36,021 nt of DNA. Source: a virus. Position 1 is the stretch's first letter; every line of letters starts with the position of its first letter. Shown piece by piece: positions 2,624 through 36,021 of this stretch. Under the pieces are notes generated by a model. That model was not told where the DNA came from. It did no database searches and saw only the letters and a list, made by a program, of their open reading frames with translations. The DNA lies in the IMG/VR virus record IMGVR_UViG_3300037245_000312, positions 1 through 36,021 of that record; one strand, given 5' to 3'. The translations under genes were made by a program, and so were the position numbers.

Positions 2624-3592
2624 ATGGGTAGAGCACTAGGAGCACCAATACCAACGGGTTTTGTCGATCAGTTCGACAACACTCTGTACCATCTGCTACA
2701 GCAGAAGGATTCAAAGTTTCAACAGGCGGTTGACATCAAACCTATCACTAACGCAGAAGACAAAGCGTTCGATGCAATAGGCAAGCTGGCGTTGACCGAG
2801 AAAACAGAACGTAATCCGAAGACACCGATTACAGAAATTAACACTGAAAGGCGTTGGGTTAATACCACTCCTTTCCACGAAGCCGTACTTATCGACCGTG
2901 ACGATGACCTTAATAGGATTGTTGAGCCTACGTCCGATATTATGACTGAGTTTGTAAACGCAGTGAACCGCAAGAAGGATGACATAATCCTTGAGTCTAT
3001 TGATGCTGATGTAGTATCTGGTAGAACGTCTAAGGGTGGAACTGTAATATCGTGGGCGTCTCAGGACGGTAATGTTAAGTATACCGACAAAGACACTGGC
3101 CGTACTATTGCATGGGACACCGCAGTAGGTAATGCAAATGCAGCCGACACAGGCTTAACAGTTGAAAAAGTCGAACTTGTTCGTGAGTATTTCGCAAACA
3201 ACGACGCAGACGAAAGTACACCAATCTGGGGTGCTATCAGTCCTCGTCAAGCAACCAACCTGTTCGGTCAGGAAGAGTACGTCAACAACGATTACAGTAA
3301 TGGCAAACCTCTTACCACTGGTCGTATCATCATGGGCTGGCATGGTGTCAACTGGATTGTATCGACTAAGATTGTTGGCGGAACAAACAATGATGTTGAT
3401 GGTGACAAAGACGTAGTTCGTTGTCCGTTCTGGTTGCAGAGTGGTTTGATTCTTGGCGTTCAGGATATGATCTCTACTGAGATTAGTATTCGAGCAGACC
3501 TGTCATACTCTAAGCAGATTTATGTTCACATGAACATGGGTGGCATGAGACGTGACGAAGACCGAATTGTATACGTTGAAACAGTAGCATAA
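2624..3592 (+). CDS. Major capsid protein
   Basis: The product has 322 residues, a normal size for an HK97-fold podoviral coat protein. It resembles the phage capsid family typified by IPTGFVDQF near the N-terminus, a RRWVNTTPFHEAVLIDRDDD segment at about residues 83-102, and the C-terminal block in which an R(C/A)PFW segment, ISIRADLSYSKQIYVHM and GGMRRDEDRIVYVE follow each other. The gene has a good ribosome site (AAGGAAAA) and is followed by a hairpin at 3601-3635. It would form the icosahedral shell with the portal and scaffold encoded just upstream. This is the most confidently placed head gene in the window. Confidence 0.9.
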   Translation: MGRALGAPIPTGFVDQFDNTLYHLLQQKDSKFQQAVDIKPITNAEDKAFDAIGKLALTEKTERNPKTPITEINTERRWVNTTPFHEAVLIDRDDDLNRIVEPTSDIMTEFVNAVNRKKDDIILESIDADVVSGRTSKGGTVISWASQDGNVKYTDKDTGRTIAWDTAVGNANAADTGLTVEKVELVREYFANNDADESTPIWGAISPRQATNLFGQEEYVNNDYSNGKPLTTGRIIMGWHGVNWIVSTKIVGGTNNDVDGDKDVVRCPFWLQSGLILGVQDMISTEISIRADLSYSKQIYVHMNMGGMRRDEDRIVYVETVA

Positions 3593-6139: not shown

Positions 6140-6524
6140 CGAAATACAAGCAGACTATAAGACAGGCGAAACGCTATACGCCACAAGGTTCCAGCCCACC
6201 GGGAATGTGTTCATTACTTCCGGTGCGTCTGACCAGGTATGGTCTGATCCTACTCTGTACGATGTAACAATGGCTGAGAACGGCAATGGTGGTCATTACG
6301 AGGGCGACTTCGATGCGTCTGCTAATATCGCCGCTGGTACGTATCAGGTTACTATTTTCTTGCAGACAGGCGGAAGCCCAGCTAACGGTGATCCTCAATT
6401 ATACAAAGGTGAGATTTACTGGGATGGCACAGCAGAAATAAGCATATTTACATTAGACAATAGCATAAACATACTCACTGCTGCTGGCAGTAGGGTATTA
6501 AACGTATATGGAGTCGGCGAATAA
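6132..6524 (+). CDS. Conserved small tail-region protein, Ig-like
   Basis: The product has 130 residues and starts at a TTG (6132) preceded by AGGAG at good spacing; the reading frame overlaps the end of the tail tubular A gene. It shows the pattern of a small beta-sandwich: a Y-K-T-G-E-T-L-Y start, GGHYEGDFDASANIAAGTYQ at residues 54-73, then strand VTIFLQTGG and YKGEIYWDG at about 91-99. Proteins of this pattern occur between the gp11- and gp12-like genes in many uncultured podoviruses; their role is not known. A structural or tail-associated role is inferred from position. Confidence 0.6.
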   Translation: MANEIQADYKTGETLYATRFQPTGNVFITSGASDQVWSDPTLYDVTMAENGNGGHYEGDFDASANIAAGTYQVTIFLQTGGSPANGDPQLYKGEIYWDGTAEISIFTLDNSINILTAAGSRVLNVYGVGE

Positions 6525-9010
6525 TGGCAAACGTACCAGTTATAAAAATGAATAAAGGCAAGGCCACTAAGCTGATCGACGCTCGCTCAGACGTAGAGGC
6601 GTACAGCGGCCTGTGTAGGGAACTCCAGAACATGATCCCTCGCATCTACGGCCCTGTCGAAAGACGGCCCGGCTTTAAGTACATAGCAGACTGCGAAGAT
6701 AACGATGTAAAATCCCGCATGGTTCCGTTTGTATTCTCTTCGGAGATTGCTTATGATATAGAGTTCTCTGACTTAAAGATAAATGTATATTTCGACGGTA
6801 CGCTTATTGAGGCTGACATAACGACTCCGTATCTCGAAGCAGACCTATTCCAGTTGCAGTTCAATCAGTCAGCGGACGTAATGTGGATAGTTCATCCAGA
6901 CTATGCTCCCCGCAAATTATCAAGAGTAGCTGTAGATGACTTCTCGCTCGACAAAATATCATTCACTAATGGCCCATTCATTAAGAGGAATGACCTTGCT
7001 AATAACGACAAGGTGACAATCAAGGCTACTGGTTATACAATAGCTACCGCCACTCTTGGTGCAGTCGAATCTGGCGAGTTCACAATAGCCAGCACGACCG
7101 ATATATCAGGTCAGTTCCCAGTAAACCATAGATTCTATGTCACTGACTCAACAGGCAATGATAAGGCTTATTCTGTATTCACCTCGTCATGGGTCGCCAA
7201 CGCACTTACAATAGTTCCCAACGAAACCGTAGCTACAAGTGACAATGATGGCGAGATAATGGTAGATGACGCCACTGTCACCCTCACAGCGTCCTCTAAT
7301 ACGTTCCAGACTGCTCATGTGGACGCCTTATTCAAACTTACGCATAAACGGGCCGAAGTAGTAACAAGTGGCTCAGTGACCGCTACAGGGGTCATGGGCG
7401 AAGCGATAGACGTTAAAGGGTCTTGGACATTTACTACGACAGGAAACTGGGATGCTACAGTAGAGATTCAAAGGTTGGCTGATGGGACTAATTGGGAGAC
7501 ATTCAGGTCTTATGTGTCAACTATAACAGACGGGCAAGGTTCTAGGAACGTACAAAAGTCTGACATAGAGGATGCAGATGGCGTCCAGTATAGAATGAAT
7601 GTAGTGTCCTACAATAGTGGAACTTTGGTTGCTGACATTACCGTTGACAGTAGTACACAAGAAAGCATATTCAAGATCACATCACTCACAAGCCCTACTA
7701 TAGTAGAGGCCACAGCCTTAGTAGCAGCACCAGAGAACGGAACTACCGTGAGATGGGCTGAAGGTTCATGGTCGGATGTGCGTGGCTGGCCTACTACAAT
7801 AGCATTCTTTGAAGAGCGGGCTATTTACGGATTCACCACAGAAGATGCCCAGAATATATGGTTAAGTGGAACGAATGATTTTGAAGACTTCGAGGCTGGG
7901 GTTATTGATGATAACTCATTTGCCTTAAGAGTCCCTACGGCTAATAGGGGCAGGTGGATAAGTGCATTAGATGAACTTGCGGTTGGAATGAGCGGAGACG
8001 AATGGGTGATACGAACATCCACTGTAAACAAACCTTTGACTCCAGACCCAATACCAACTGTCAAGCGACAGACGAAATTCGGCAGTACAAATATACAGGC
8101 TATGGCAGTTAATGAGGCTATAATCTTTATAGATTCTGTTGCTAGGAAAATACGTGAGTACACATTCAGCGATCAGAAACAAAAATTAGTATCGCCTGAT
8201 TTGACTGCTTTGGCTGAGGATATAACTACTGGTGGAATTACTAGCATGGCAGTCCAGGGTAATCCAGATAATGTCGTTTGGTTTACTATCGCAGACAATC
8301 CTTATCTTATCTCAATGACTTATGAACGAGAGCAGAATGTAGTGGCTTTCGCAGAACATCCTGCCGGTGGTGATGGAATAGTAGAGTCTATCTCTATTAC
8401 CCCAAGCACTTCCGAAGATGTGATAACATGCTCAATAAAGAGAATTATAGACAGCTTGCCTAAGCGTACAATAGAGCAGATGCAACCGAGAAACTACGGA
8501 GCAGACACTGACATATTCTTCGTTGATGGCGGAATCATCGACACTGGTGGTACTACGACTATAACTGGACTAAGCCACCTTGAAGGCGAAACAGTGCAGG
8601 TCATGGTTGATGGAGCACAGCAGTCAGATAAGGTGGTTCAGGCTGGCCAGATAACCATAGACAAGGCTGGTACGAGAGTTATTGTCGGATTGCCTTATGA
8701 ATACAGGGTATCGCCGATGAGACTTGACGTTAATGGCTCGACCTATGGCACAATAAAGAAAATACACGAACTTGTAGCTAGTTTCTATAAGACACTGAAT
8801 GCCAAGTACGGCGACGGCACAACTCAGTACGATATTAACTGGCGTACAACAGAGAACTACGATAGCCCACCAGACCTGTTTACAGGCGACAGGACGCTAG
8901 TATTTGACGGTGGGTTTACTACAGAAGATAACTTAACAATTTCAGGCTCAGACCCATTCCCTTGTGTTCTGCGAGCTTTAATACCTAAAATAGATAAGAC
9001 AGGGCGGTAA
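6524..9010 (+). CDS. Tail tubular protein B (T7 gp12-like nozzle)
   Basis: The product has 828 residues, similar to T7 gp12 (794). The N-terminus has the family start, with short basic residues, an SGLCRELQNMIPRIYGPVER segment at about residues 29-48 and RRPGFKYIA next to it. Two motifs typical of this family follow in the middle: GWPTTIAFFEERAIYGFT at about residues 421-438 and the ISALDELAVGMSGDEW region. The hexameric nozzle forms the distal tail tube and binds fibres. The ATG shares bases with the preceding stop (TAATG). The tailspike gene follows after 2 nt, as expected for the protein that docks to this nozzle. Confidence 0.88.
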   Translation: MANVPVIKMNKGKATKLIDARSDVEAYSGLCRELQNMIPRIYGPVERRPGFKYIADCEDNDVKSRMVPFVFSSEIAYDIEFSDLKINVYFDGTLIEADITTPYLEADLFQLQFNQSADVMWIVHPDYAPRKLSRVAVDDFSLDKISFTNGPFIKRNDLANNDKVTIKATGYTIATATLGAVESGEFTIASTTDISGQFPVNHRFYVTDSTGNDKAYSVFTSSWVANALTIVPNETVATSDNDGEIMVDDATVTLTASSNTFQTAHVDALFKLTHKRAEVVTSGSVTATGVMGEAIDVKGSWTFTTTGNWDATVEIQRLADGTNWETFRSYVSTITDGQGSRNVQKSDIEDADGVQYRMNVVSYNSGTLVADITVDSSTQESIFKITSLTSPTIVEATALVAAPENGTTVRWAEGSWSDVRGWPTTIAFFEERAIYGFTTEDAQNIWLSGTNDFEDFEAGVIDDNSFALRVPTANRGRWISALDELAVGMSGDEWVIRTSTVNKPLTPDPIPTVKRQTKFGSTNIQAMAVNEAIIFIDSVARKIREYTFSDQKQKLVSPDLTALAEDITTGGITSMAVQGNPDNVVWFTIADNPYLISMTYEREQNVVAFAEHPAGGDGIVESISITPSTSEDVITCSIKRIIDSLPKRTIEQMQPRNYGADTDIFFVDGGIIDTGGTTTITGLSHLEGETVQVMVDGAQQSDKVVQAGQITIDKAGTRVIVGLPYEYRVSPMRLDVNGSTYGTIKKIHELVASFYKTLNAKYGDGTTQYDINWRTTENYDSPPDLFTGDRTLVFDGGFTTEDNLTISGSDPFPCVLRALIPKIDKTGR

Positions 9011-33022: not shown

Positions 33023-33190
33023 TTAAATGGCTTCAATATCACCGCAATAGTCATCGCTTGATGTAGTAGGCCAATCGGTAGAGAAATCCCCGTTCGTGTC
33101 TGCTGCTACAACAGGACTATGCTTGCGGCAACTACCTTTAGTGCGGTCATTTTTCCATTGATCCCAAAATACACATTCTTTGCATATCAT
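33023..33190 (-). CDS. Four-Cys small protein (55 residues)
   Basis: A 55-codon gene with AGGAG before its ATG. The Cys pattern is ICKEC near the start, C at about 21, and YCGD close to the end, with a TDWPTTSSDDY segment before the last. It matches a recurrent small phage protein type with these spaced Cys and a WP motif, without a known function. A zinc-binding role is likely from the Cys spacing. Confidence 0.5.
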   Translation of the reverse strand: MICKECVFWDQWKNDRTKGSCRKHSPVVAADTNGDFSTDWPTTSSDDYCGDIEAI

Positions 33191-33217
33191 TGCTTCTATC
33201 TCCTATTAAATTACTGT

Positions 33218-33726: not shown

Positions 33727-33768
33727 GTCCTGATTCCTTAAAAAGTATTATCATTGTTATCTATTACA

Positions 33769-33796
33769 AATATAACACATAAATCGAACAATGCAA
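33769..33796 (-). promoter_or_regulatory. Leftward early promoter
   Basis: On the minus strand TTGCAT and TATATT are separated by 16 nt. Transcription would start near 33762. It is 43-70 nt before the first minus-strand gene. The hexamers resemble those of the promoter at 34710 (shared TTGCATTGT). Confidence 0.6.
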
Positions 33797-33833: not shown

Positions 33834-33861
33834 TTGACTTTCGCCCGATCCGTGCTATACT
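33834..33861 (+). promoter_or_regulatory. Rightward promoter of the structured RNA
   Basis: TTGACT at 33834-33839 and TATACT at 33856-33861 are separated by 16 nt, with TGC before the -10. Transcription would start near 33868, exactly at the left edge of the structured region. It points away from the leftward promoter 38 bp to its left. Confidence 0.75.
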
Positions 33862-33867
33862 GTTAAT

Positions 33868-34120
33868 AGTGTTTCAGGCAACATCGCAGGTGCAAGCCGG
33901 TCATCTTCGGAGGGCTGGCAATATCCATCGGGCGGCGAAAGCTTACGGACGGGCGTGTAGGTAGCTCTGGATAACCGAGTCCTCGACTATGCTTGACTAG
34001 CGGCGATAAGGCTAGCAACAGTCAGAGTGCCTGGTGGATATTTACGGGGCAGCGGGTTTCCGGCAGTAGCGTAAGCGAAGATCGGATTAAATTATTGGAG
34101 TAAGCCTTGCTGCTCTTTTT
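33868..34120 (+). ncRNA. Putative structured RNA (~250 nt), unknown class
   Basis: No credible reading frame lies between 33727 and 34170, and a strong promoter sits just before. Helices that can be read: a 7-bp stem 33896-33902/33913-33919 whose top is C(UUCG)G; a 10-bp long-range helix 33920-33929/34033-34042; a CTAGC hairpin 33997-34001/34011-34015; CCGG/TCGG 34060-34063/34082-34085 with a GC-GUAA-GC tip at 34069-34076; and an 11-bp 3' helix 34046-34056/34106-34116 (four G-U) followed by UUUU, resembling a terminator. CAGGCA at 33875-33880 can also pair with TGCCTG at 34028-34033, crossing the long-range helix (pseudoknot). I recognise no known RNA family. Confidence 0.65.
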
Positions 34121-34149
34121 ATCAACCCTTAAAGGGGAAACTTTAATTT
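34118..34149 (+). repeat. 32-bp perfect repeat, copy 1
   Basis: This 32-bp element is identical to 34405-34436. It holds the inverted repeat TTAAAG-GGGAAA-CTTTAA (6-bp stem, 6-nt loop) and an overlapping CCCTTAAAGGG that cannot form at the same time. It lies 21 bp before the ATG at 34171. It may be an operator, a phage RNA polymerase promoter or an mRNA element. Confidence 0.8.
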
Positions 34150-34170: not shown

Positions 34171-34404
34171 ATGCTAAAAGACTTAATTAAAAGCAGTGAC
34201 GTGATTAAGGACGAAACCGAACTCTCTCAGAGGGAGGCAGGTGACAAAGTTGAGGCGTATATCCTTGCCCAAACAGTCACCGTCCAAGAAATGTTTGATG
34301 TAGTAAGTAAGGAATATGACCACAGATCATCAAGGGACGGACAAATATCTACTTGGGACATTCTAAACACTGCTAAAAAGGTCCTATTAAAGAGAGAAGG
34401 CTAA
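34171..34404 (+). CDS. Small acidic protein, unknown (77 residues)
   Basis: The product has 77 residues and is not recognised. It is helical and charged (LKDLIKSSDVIKDETEL, VQEMFDVVSKEYDHRSS, ILNTAKKVLLKREG) with no Cys or membrane segment. The ribosome site AAAGGAG is at good spacing, and the 32-bp repeat lies just upstream, so the element probably controls it. Its stop precedes the second repeat copy by 1-2 bases. Confidence 0.55.
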   Translation: MLKDLIKSSDVIKDETELSQREAGDKVEAYILAQTVTVQEMFDVVSKEYDHRSSRDGQISTWDILNTAKKVLLKREG

Positions 34405-34436
34405 TTTATCAACCCTTAAAGGGGAAACTTTAATTT
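34405..34436 (+). repeat. 32-bp perfect repeat, copy 2
   Basis: The second copy of the 34118-34149 element, 255 bp downstream and right before another small gene (ATG at 34449). The two copies are identical over 32 bp. Sequence outside the 32 bp differs, so selection or recent duplication keeps the element itself. Confidence 0.8.
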
Positions 34437-34448
34437 TGGAGATGTATA

Positions 34449-34649
34449 ATGGCTAATATGTGGTATGAATCGAATTGCCCTGAATGCGGCAAACAGAATT
34501 GGGTATGTGATGGTGATCCAAGCGATCTATCAGGCATGGACATTGAGGGGCTGAAGTGCTGGAACTGTGGTGCTGTTTATGATATAGGCACAGGTGAATT
34601 ATTGGCTGATGACAATTTCTCTGACGAAGGCCAGCAGTACCCAATCTAG
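34449..34649 (+). CDS. Zinc-ribbon small protein (66 residues)
   Basis: The product has 66 residues. CPECGK at residues 10-15 and LKCWNCGAVY at about 35-44 form a CxxC...CxxC zinc ribbon. Between them is a short acidic stretch; the end is acidic. A GGAG site precedes the ATG, and the second 32-bp repeat lies just upstream. A transcription or nucleic-acid adaptor is plausible for this fold, but no specific role is visible. Confidence 0.6.
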   Translation: MANMWYESNCPECGKQNWVCDGDPSDLSGMDIEGLKCWNCGAVYDIGTGELLADDNFSDEGQQYPI

Positions 34650-34709: not shown

Positions 34710-34737
34710 TTGCATTGTCGAAAATCGGTGGTATACT
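34710..34737 (+). promoter_or_regulatory. Promoter of the attenuator-like leader
   Basis: TTGCAT at 34710-34715 and TATACT at 34732-34737 are separated by 16 nt, with TGG before the -10. Transcription would start near 34744, just before the leader hairpin. Confidence 0.7.
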
Positions 34738-34743
34738 TGCAAT

Positions 34744-34842
34744 AGATAAACCCTTGGAAAGCCAGATCGACATTATTTACATACTCAACGATTCACAGCG
34801 AACTGCTTTCCAAGGGCTATCGCAAGTGGATCGTTTTTTTTT
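34744..34842 (+). ncRNA. Attenuator-like RNA leader or small RNA
   Basis: A 12-bp perfect stem pairs 34751-34762 with 34805-34816 (CCCTTGGAAAGC and its complement). A second hairpin pairs 34788-34801 with 34820-34834 (13 bp, one U-G, one A/AA internal loop) and is followed directly by eight more T, an excellent intrinsic terminator. The right arm of the first stem lies in the loop of the second, and the two cross, so they form a pseudoknot or exclude each other, the logic of an attenuator. The U-tract is adjacent to a GGAG ribosome site for the gene at 34854. It could be a leader that controls this gene, or a terminated small RNA of ~100 nt. Confidence 0.7.
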
Positions 34843-34853
34843 GGAGTAATATA

Positions 34854-35200: not shown

Positions 35201-35376
35201 TGGCCGGTATACTTAAAAGAATGCGTAAGAAATACAAATCAACATATTACGGCGGTACATGGATGAAGTGGTTCAAGCGAAGGGTAAAAGGCCATAATGA
35301 AGAATTTGAAGAGTTCTCAGAAAACTATCTCAGGGCTTTAGATAAAATAGAACACAACAAAAAAAGAGCAGACTAA
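35200..35376 (+). CDS. Small basic/aromatic protein (58 residues)
   Basis: A 58-codon gene coupled to the one before (TAATG). The first 30 residues are very basic with Tyr and Trp (KRMRKKYKSTYYGG, KWFKRRVKG), followed by an acidic helix (NEEFEEFSENYLRALDKI) and a Lys-rich end. A nucleic-acid or membrane-contact role is possible but not shown. Confidence 0.5.
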   Translation: MAGILKRMRKKYKSTYYGGTWMKWFKRRVKGHNEEFEEFSENYLRALDKIEHNKKRAD

Positions 35377-35487
35377 CACCCAAATCGGCAAAGGCAAGTG
35401 GCCTCGCACCGTTCAAGTCGGTAATGTCGAATTTTAAGAAATAAAGCGGGTTAAGAAATCAATAGCTTTCGCCCAGGCATTACGAAA

Positions 35488-36001: not shown

Positions 36002-36021
36002 CTAACGCAATAATAACCCAA

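Follow-up and report, generated by a model that had tools for sequence, protein, structure and literature searches.

A candidate untranslated leader RNA between a conserved promoter and a small-gene operon in an uncultured podovirus

The textbook example of a phage operon preceded by a terminated leader is the PR' late leader of lambda. Phage small RNAs that act in trans are also known in general, and GOLLD and ROOL represent large noncoding structured RNAs, some of which come from phage or prophage settings. In phage HK022, putL is found just downstream of the PL promoter, and put RNA, composed of two stem-loops, measures about 70 nt (PMC9378689); GOLLD and ROOL, on the other hand, have been described as ornate large RNAs (PMC12286853). 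The gene-free stretch that we describe here, positions 33868-34120 of a virus record, shares with attenuators and PR' leaders a strong promoter, a putative untranslated leader in the range of 100-300 nt and a terminator-like hairpin, followed by an operon. It differs from the PR' leader in that no Q-type protein was found here with PF06530 and PF03589, and in its terminator-like stem, which is large and branched and represents a predicted terminator. Like putL and putR, it lies just downstream of a phage promoter, but in size and layout, by which we compared them, it is distinct from put RNA, with 250 nt, a 15-bp long-range helix and a terminator-like end of its own. Unlike GOLLD and ROOL, it has no Rfam match to families of that kind. 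We tentatively interpret it as an untranslated leader RNA that controls the rightward operon by regulated termination, and consider the chances of this interpretation to be slightly less than even.

The window, i.e. the whole stretch of DNA analyzed, is a linear IMG/VR virus record of 36,021 bases (G000). It belongs to a podovirus-type phage: a portal-type head-tail adaptor is encoded at its left end, 2624-3592 encodes the major head protein, and 6524-9010 a tail protein with 27-28% identity to those of BcepC6B and SPN1S. The genes between 20485 and 33726 point leftward and include DNA methyltransferases, an Erf-like annealing protein, a primosomal protein and HNH endonucleases, while small rightward genes extend from 34171 up to the record end. 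The region 33868-34120 is placed where these two blocks diverge. The first two genes of the rightward operon encode proteins of 77 aa (34171-34404, plus strand) and 66 aa (34449-34649, plus strand), the latter with two CxxC pairs reminiscent of a zinc ribbon; neither belongs to a known family. Two further similarities were noted in this part of the record. An inverted pair of 40 nt (33757-33796 and 34710-34749, 75% complementary) relates the presumed leftward promoter to a second rightward promoter, and 25 nt spanning a ribosome-binding site and start codon (33185-33209) are identical in the closest relative (L014 4349-4373), although the genes behind them differ.

The promoter at 33834-33861 (plus strand) is of the sigma70 type, TTGACT-16-TATACT, with 10/12 matching positions and an extended -10 element (TGC), and ranks best among the promoters of the region. 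It had already been proposed, with its end at 33861, in a preliminary description of this DNA, and our reading of the sequence confirms it. The closest relative (G001), with 96% identity in the major head protein, has retained it: there, 61 nt align with 70% identity (L014 4099-4039, minus strand; TTGACT...TATACTGTTA), and both hexamers as well as the downstream GTTARTARTG are kept. In this relative, the promoter drives small genes via a short leader, without a long RNA. In the window, it is followed by the candidate untranslated RNA (33868-34120, plus strand), the start of which was set by the promoter and the end by a T tract. As the preliminary description had stated, this stretch is free of genes: no ORF of at least 60 aa overlaps it, and the longest stop-free frame inside it, at 51 codons, is no longer than those in shuffled sequences (p = 0.83), for which reason we rejected a coding explanation. 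Its G+C content is 53%, compared to 45% record-wide, and only 2% of 253-nt windows are equally rich.

The preliminary description had further taken the many helices of this stretch as evidence for a structured RNA, yet most of them proved to be at chance level when compared with 300 dinucleotide shuffles. The C(UUCG)G tetraloop is located at 33905-33910 and caps a hairpin (33896-33919, plus strand) with a pairing probability near 1; the 7-bp stem assigned to it is present, but continues beyond an A.G mismatch with another 2 bp. CTTCGG itself occurs in 9% of the shuffles. Likewise, the proposed 10-bp long-range helix exists, with AATATCCATC at 33920-33929 being complementary to 34033-34042, but in that form it is unremarkable, as 52% of the shuffles contain a helix of at least 10 bp with a span of at least 100 nt. 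It extends, however, to 15 bp (three of them G-U; 5' arm 33920-33934, 3' arm 34028-34042, plus strand), and helices of at least 14 bp were found in only 2.3% of the shuffles. The pseudoknot suggested between CAGGCA (33875-33880) and TGCCTG (34028-34033) has to be abandoned: both motifs are there, but the latter is contained in the 3' arm, so that the pseudoknot would need to break the 15-bp helix, and a 6-bp helix crossing one of at least 10 bp is seen in 58% of the shuffles. Inside the long-range helix, we find a further hairpin, GGC(GAAA)GCU (33934-33943, plus strand), whose first base is also claimed by the last pair of that helix. The letters of a GUAA-capped hairpin at 34060-34085 are present as described, but the minimum-energy fold does not include this hairpin.

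At the 3' end, the terminator-like helix with a T run that had been placed at 34106-34120 retains its T tract, but not its stem, which is really formed by 34046-34059 and 34102-34116. Together they make up an intrinsic-terminator-like domain (34046-34120, plus strand), in which TTTTT (34116-34120) abuts the basal stem. With about 42 nt enclosed, the loop of this stem is unusually large by the standards of intrinsic terminators, and termination may therefore be weak or partial. We also considered antiterminator alternatives, for instance 33930-33938 with 34107-34115 (9 bp, 3 G-U), and set them aside as possible but chance-like. With regard to folding energy, the full-length region 33868-34120 is ordinary (MFE z = -1.17), and sliding 150-nt windows with fixed borders yield z values between -1.05 and +0.45, which do not stand out from the background of the record. 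The core (33894-34042) has a z value of -2.70, matched by 1/200 shuffles, and the 3' domain (34044-34120) one of -2.09, but these values carry a selection effect, because the borders were chosen from the fold and windows without such a choice are ordinary. Given the full-length and sliding-window values, we regard a structure of this RNA as suggested rather than shown.

The preliminary description had found no known RNA class to fit the region, and our searches agree. Rfam 15, which includes group I and II introns, RNase P, tmRNA, 6S RNA and riboswitches, yielded no match at the gathering threshold and, up to an E value of 10, only chance-level matches to 33868-34120, and ARAGORN called no tRNA or tmRNA gene in the region. 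In isolated phages and plasmids, blastn returned only chance matches of 20-40 nt. An exact-pattern search in genome contigs revealed no relative of the RNA, and no relative was confirmed in IMG/VR scans with the neighbouring genes or in searches with the translated frames of the RNA as degenerate patterns, run on both strands of IMG/VR and on one strand of GTDB genomes. As the degenerate-pattern and neighbour-gene scans detect only fairly close relatives and may skip records that are very near, we consider the RNA an orphan in the searched collections, rather than proven unique. From two scans with the head protein, we obtained 24 related IMG/VR records, with two very distant ones set aside. 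Neither blastn of these 24 records nor a local search of most of them, including all long ones, uncovered a copy of the RNA; many are short fragments, so that only the longer records are informative on its absence. A covariance model built from the single core sequence recovered solely the window itself from 446,588 bases of related records and window. Since no homologue was found, the claim of a new structured RNA cannot be established, and 33868-34120 has the status of an orphan candidate rather than that of an established RNA class.

The same position is occupied differently in related phages. One of them (G020; 57% head-protein identity), whose terminase and portal genes lie on the same strand in the late operon, has TTGACT-16-TATTTT at the head of this operon, followed by about 250 gene-free nt (L066 ~5195-4940, minus strand) and a small hairpin. 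Neither an Rfam match nor a similar phage record was found for this leader, our covariance model gave only noise on it even with filters off, and its sequence similarity to the RNA of the window is not significant (p = 0.11). Homology between the latter and the gene-free regions of G020, G010 and G001 was rejected altogether (p 0.11 to 0.92). Unlike G020, the relatives G001, G018 and G010 lack a long leader at the equivalent position, which in G018 and G010 is the head of the late operon; a long leader is therefore optional here, and its sequence unconserved.

A smaller leader in the neighbourhood is backed by comparison. It follows a second promoter (TTGCAT-16-TATACT, 34710-34737, plus strand), about 590 nt past the end of the candidate RNA, and comprises two helices, S1 (34751-34762/34805-34816, plus strand) and S2 (34787-34796/34826-34835, plus strand). 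S1 and S2 are mutually exclusive nested stems, and S2 runs into a T tract and then a ribosome-binding site. The same design is found in three places, at 34751-34850 of the window, in G011 (L022 15827-15740, minus strand) and in G001 (L014 5478-5390, minus strand), and in each helix the letters of both arms differ, which amounts to compensatory changes. All three leaders directly adjoin promoters, forming units at 34710-34850 of the window, L022 15871-15734 and L014 5517-5390 (both minus strand). When we scanned 446,588 bases for this architecture, we obtained these three and one other case, compared to two in one shuffle of the same bases, so that the scan alone is not decisive. Predicted folds prefer S1 for the window as well as for G011, and S2 for G001. 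Judged by its sequence, the pattern at 34710-34850 looks like a terminator/antiterminator switch, and it suggests that this phage group may use terminator-bearing leaders. Given its compensatory changes in three places, it is a better-supported example than 33868-34120, and one that can be tested directly.

If 33868-34120 acts as a leader as well, the host RNA polymerase would start at the conserved promoter, and the transcript of about 250 nt would fold into the UUCG hairpin, the domain closed by the 15-bp helix and the 3' terminator-like stem with its T5. The polymerase would then either stop and release this RNA or, possibly upon some switching signal, read through into the genes that start at 34171 and 34449, perhaps even beyond them. 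In this way, the leader would set or time the transcription of the operon, as other leaders of the phage group appear to do. On the level of sequence features, an adjacent promoter, a gene-free stretch and an intrinsic-terminator-like end before an operon indeed occur together. Our preference for this interpretation is based on the promoter kept in G001, on the gene-free and G+C-rich nature of the region, on a helix that exceeds about 98% of the shuffles, domain z values of -2.7 and -2.1 and the T5 after the stem, and on the terminator-bearing leaders in the window, L022 and L014, together with the stretch of about 250 nt in G020. Against it stand the ordinary fold of the whole region, the plain sliding windows and the lack of a homologue, as well as G001 with the same promoter but without the RNA, G018 and G010 without a long leader, and the p value of 0.11 for G020. 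Of the regulatory, packaging or anti-host roles envisaged in the preliminary description, position and neighbouring leaders argue for control of the operon in cis, whereas nothing positive speaks for the other two. Should it be a working leader, it would mean that uncultured podoviruses control operons with RNA elements right behind their promoters.

Its own promoter, the terminator-like end, the domain-level stability and the capped tetraloops would also suit a stable small RNA, a terminated transcript of 250 nt that binds host or phage RNA or protein in trans. We nevertheless consider this unlikely, if credible, as no target suggests itself, the searched collections yielded no homologue, the position at the head of an operon suggests a function in cis, and no reverse transcriptase, TnpB/IscB or Ro60 that could serve as an RNA-dependent partner was found among the genes scanned. 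An RNA acting in trans would represent a new phage RNA class, a claim that needs homologues or transcripts. That the region represents such a class of about 250 nt, with a compact fold in which the 15-bp helix closes a domain of several hairpins, acting in trans or on RNA polymerase and being one of several unrelated operon-head RNAs in this podovirus group (compare G020), seems distinctly improbable to us. The stretch could also be a remnant, G+C-richer DNA left over between the promoter and the first gene, with helices that formed by chance. Its absence in the closest relatives, a full-length z value of about -1, sliding windows without excess and several helices at chance level agree with this, but one helix ranks in the top 2-3%, and G020 keeps a stretch of similar size in the same place. 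Moreover, 250 nt of idle DNA are rarely kept in phage genomes, which we counted against a remnant; it, too, is an unlikely explanation, albeit one to be taken seriously.

The leader interpretation includes as a special case a late leader of the lambda PR' kind, which would constitutively yield a short terminated RNA until a phage Q-type protein allows the polymerase through. The location between leftward early-type genes and a rightward operon would fit, as would the analogue in G020, which heads a late operon. However, two of the three known Q families (PF06530 and PF03589) were unmatched in eight records, possibly fragments, comprising the window and seven relatives, and whether the operon reaches the terminase is out of view, with the record ending at 36021. 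Q families are very diverse (PMC7171158), and the missing match therefore only lowers the chances of this very unlikely variant. Processive antitermination as in HK022, where the nascent RNA would stay on the polymerase and carry it past later terminators, is in line with the location right after a promoter where two operons diverge; the size of 250 nt, the different layout and the terminator-like stem at its own end make it highly improbable. Finally, a packaging RNA like phi29 pRNA is barely conceivable. Beyond being a phage-encoded candidate for a structured RNA, the region offers nothing in favour of this: there is no match in Rfam, pRNA covariance model included, the RNA is missing from close relatives with 85-96% identity in the major head protein where their records are long enough to judge, and the closest relative has a terminase matching phrog_675, a large-subunit family.

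The end of the candidate RNA overlaps an exact 32-nt repeat (TTTATCAACCCTTAAAGGGGAAACTTTAATTT), with one copy upstream of the first gene (34118-34149, plus strand) and another that immediately precedes the next ribosome-binding site (34405-34436, plus strand). No exact repeats of this length are expected by chance, and the two copies precede unrelated small genes. The window contains no further copy at up to 3 mismatches, and IMG/VR none of the exact core. Judging from its letters, the repeat could form a small H-type pseudoknot (CCC/GGG, TAAAG/CTTTA) or serve as an operator. A lambda-type nut site at 34111-34135 was rejected, because the boxA-like GCTCTTTT is missing from the second copy.

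Several other gene-free stretches came to our attention. At 35374-35443, the window is 80% conserved with G011 (L022 15950-15881, minus strand) and resembles a branched terminator, CGGCA...TGCCG, followed in G011 by a T tract. G020 has a gene-free stretch of 455 nt (L064 4502-4956) with a fold z value of -3.3 on the plus strand. It has a short GCAATCCCGTGC in common with an RNA of G010 (uncorrected p = 0.015). The latter (L020 1770-1885), which neither ARAGORN nor Rfam calls, resembles tRNA-Leu, with an acceptor of 8 bp (GCCAGTAG/CTACTGGC), a D-arm-like GGCGGAATATAGACGC, a T-arm-like GCAGGTGGAAATCCTGC and an odd, long anticodon arm.
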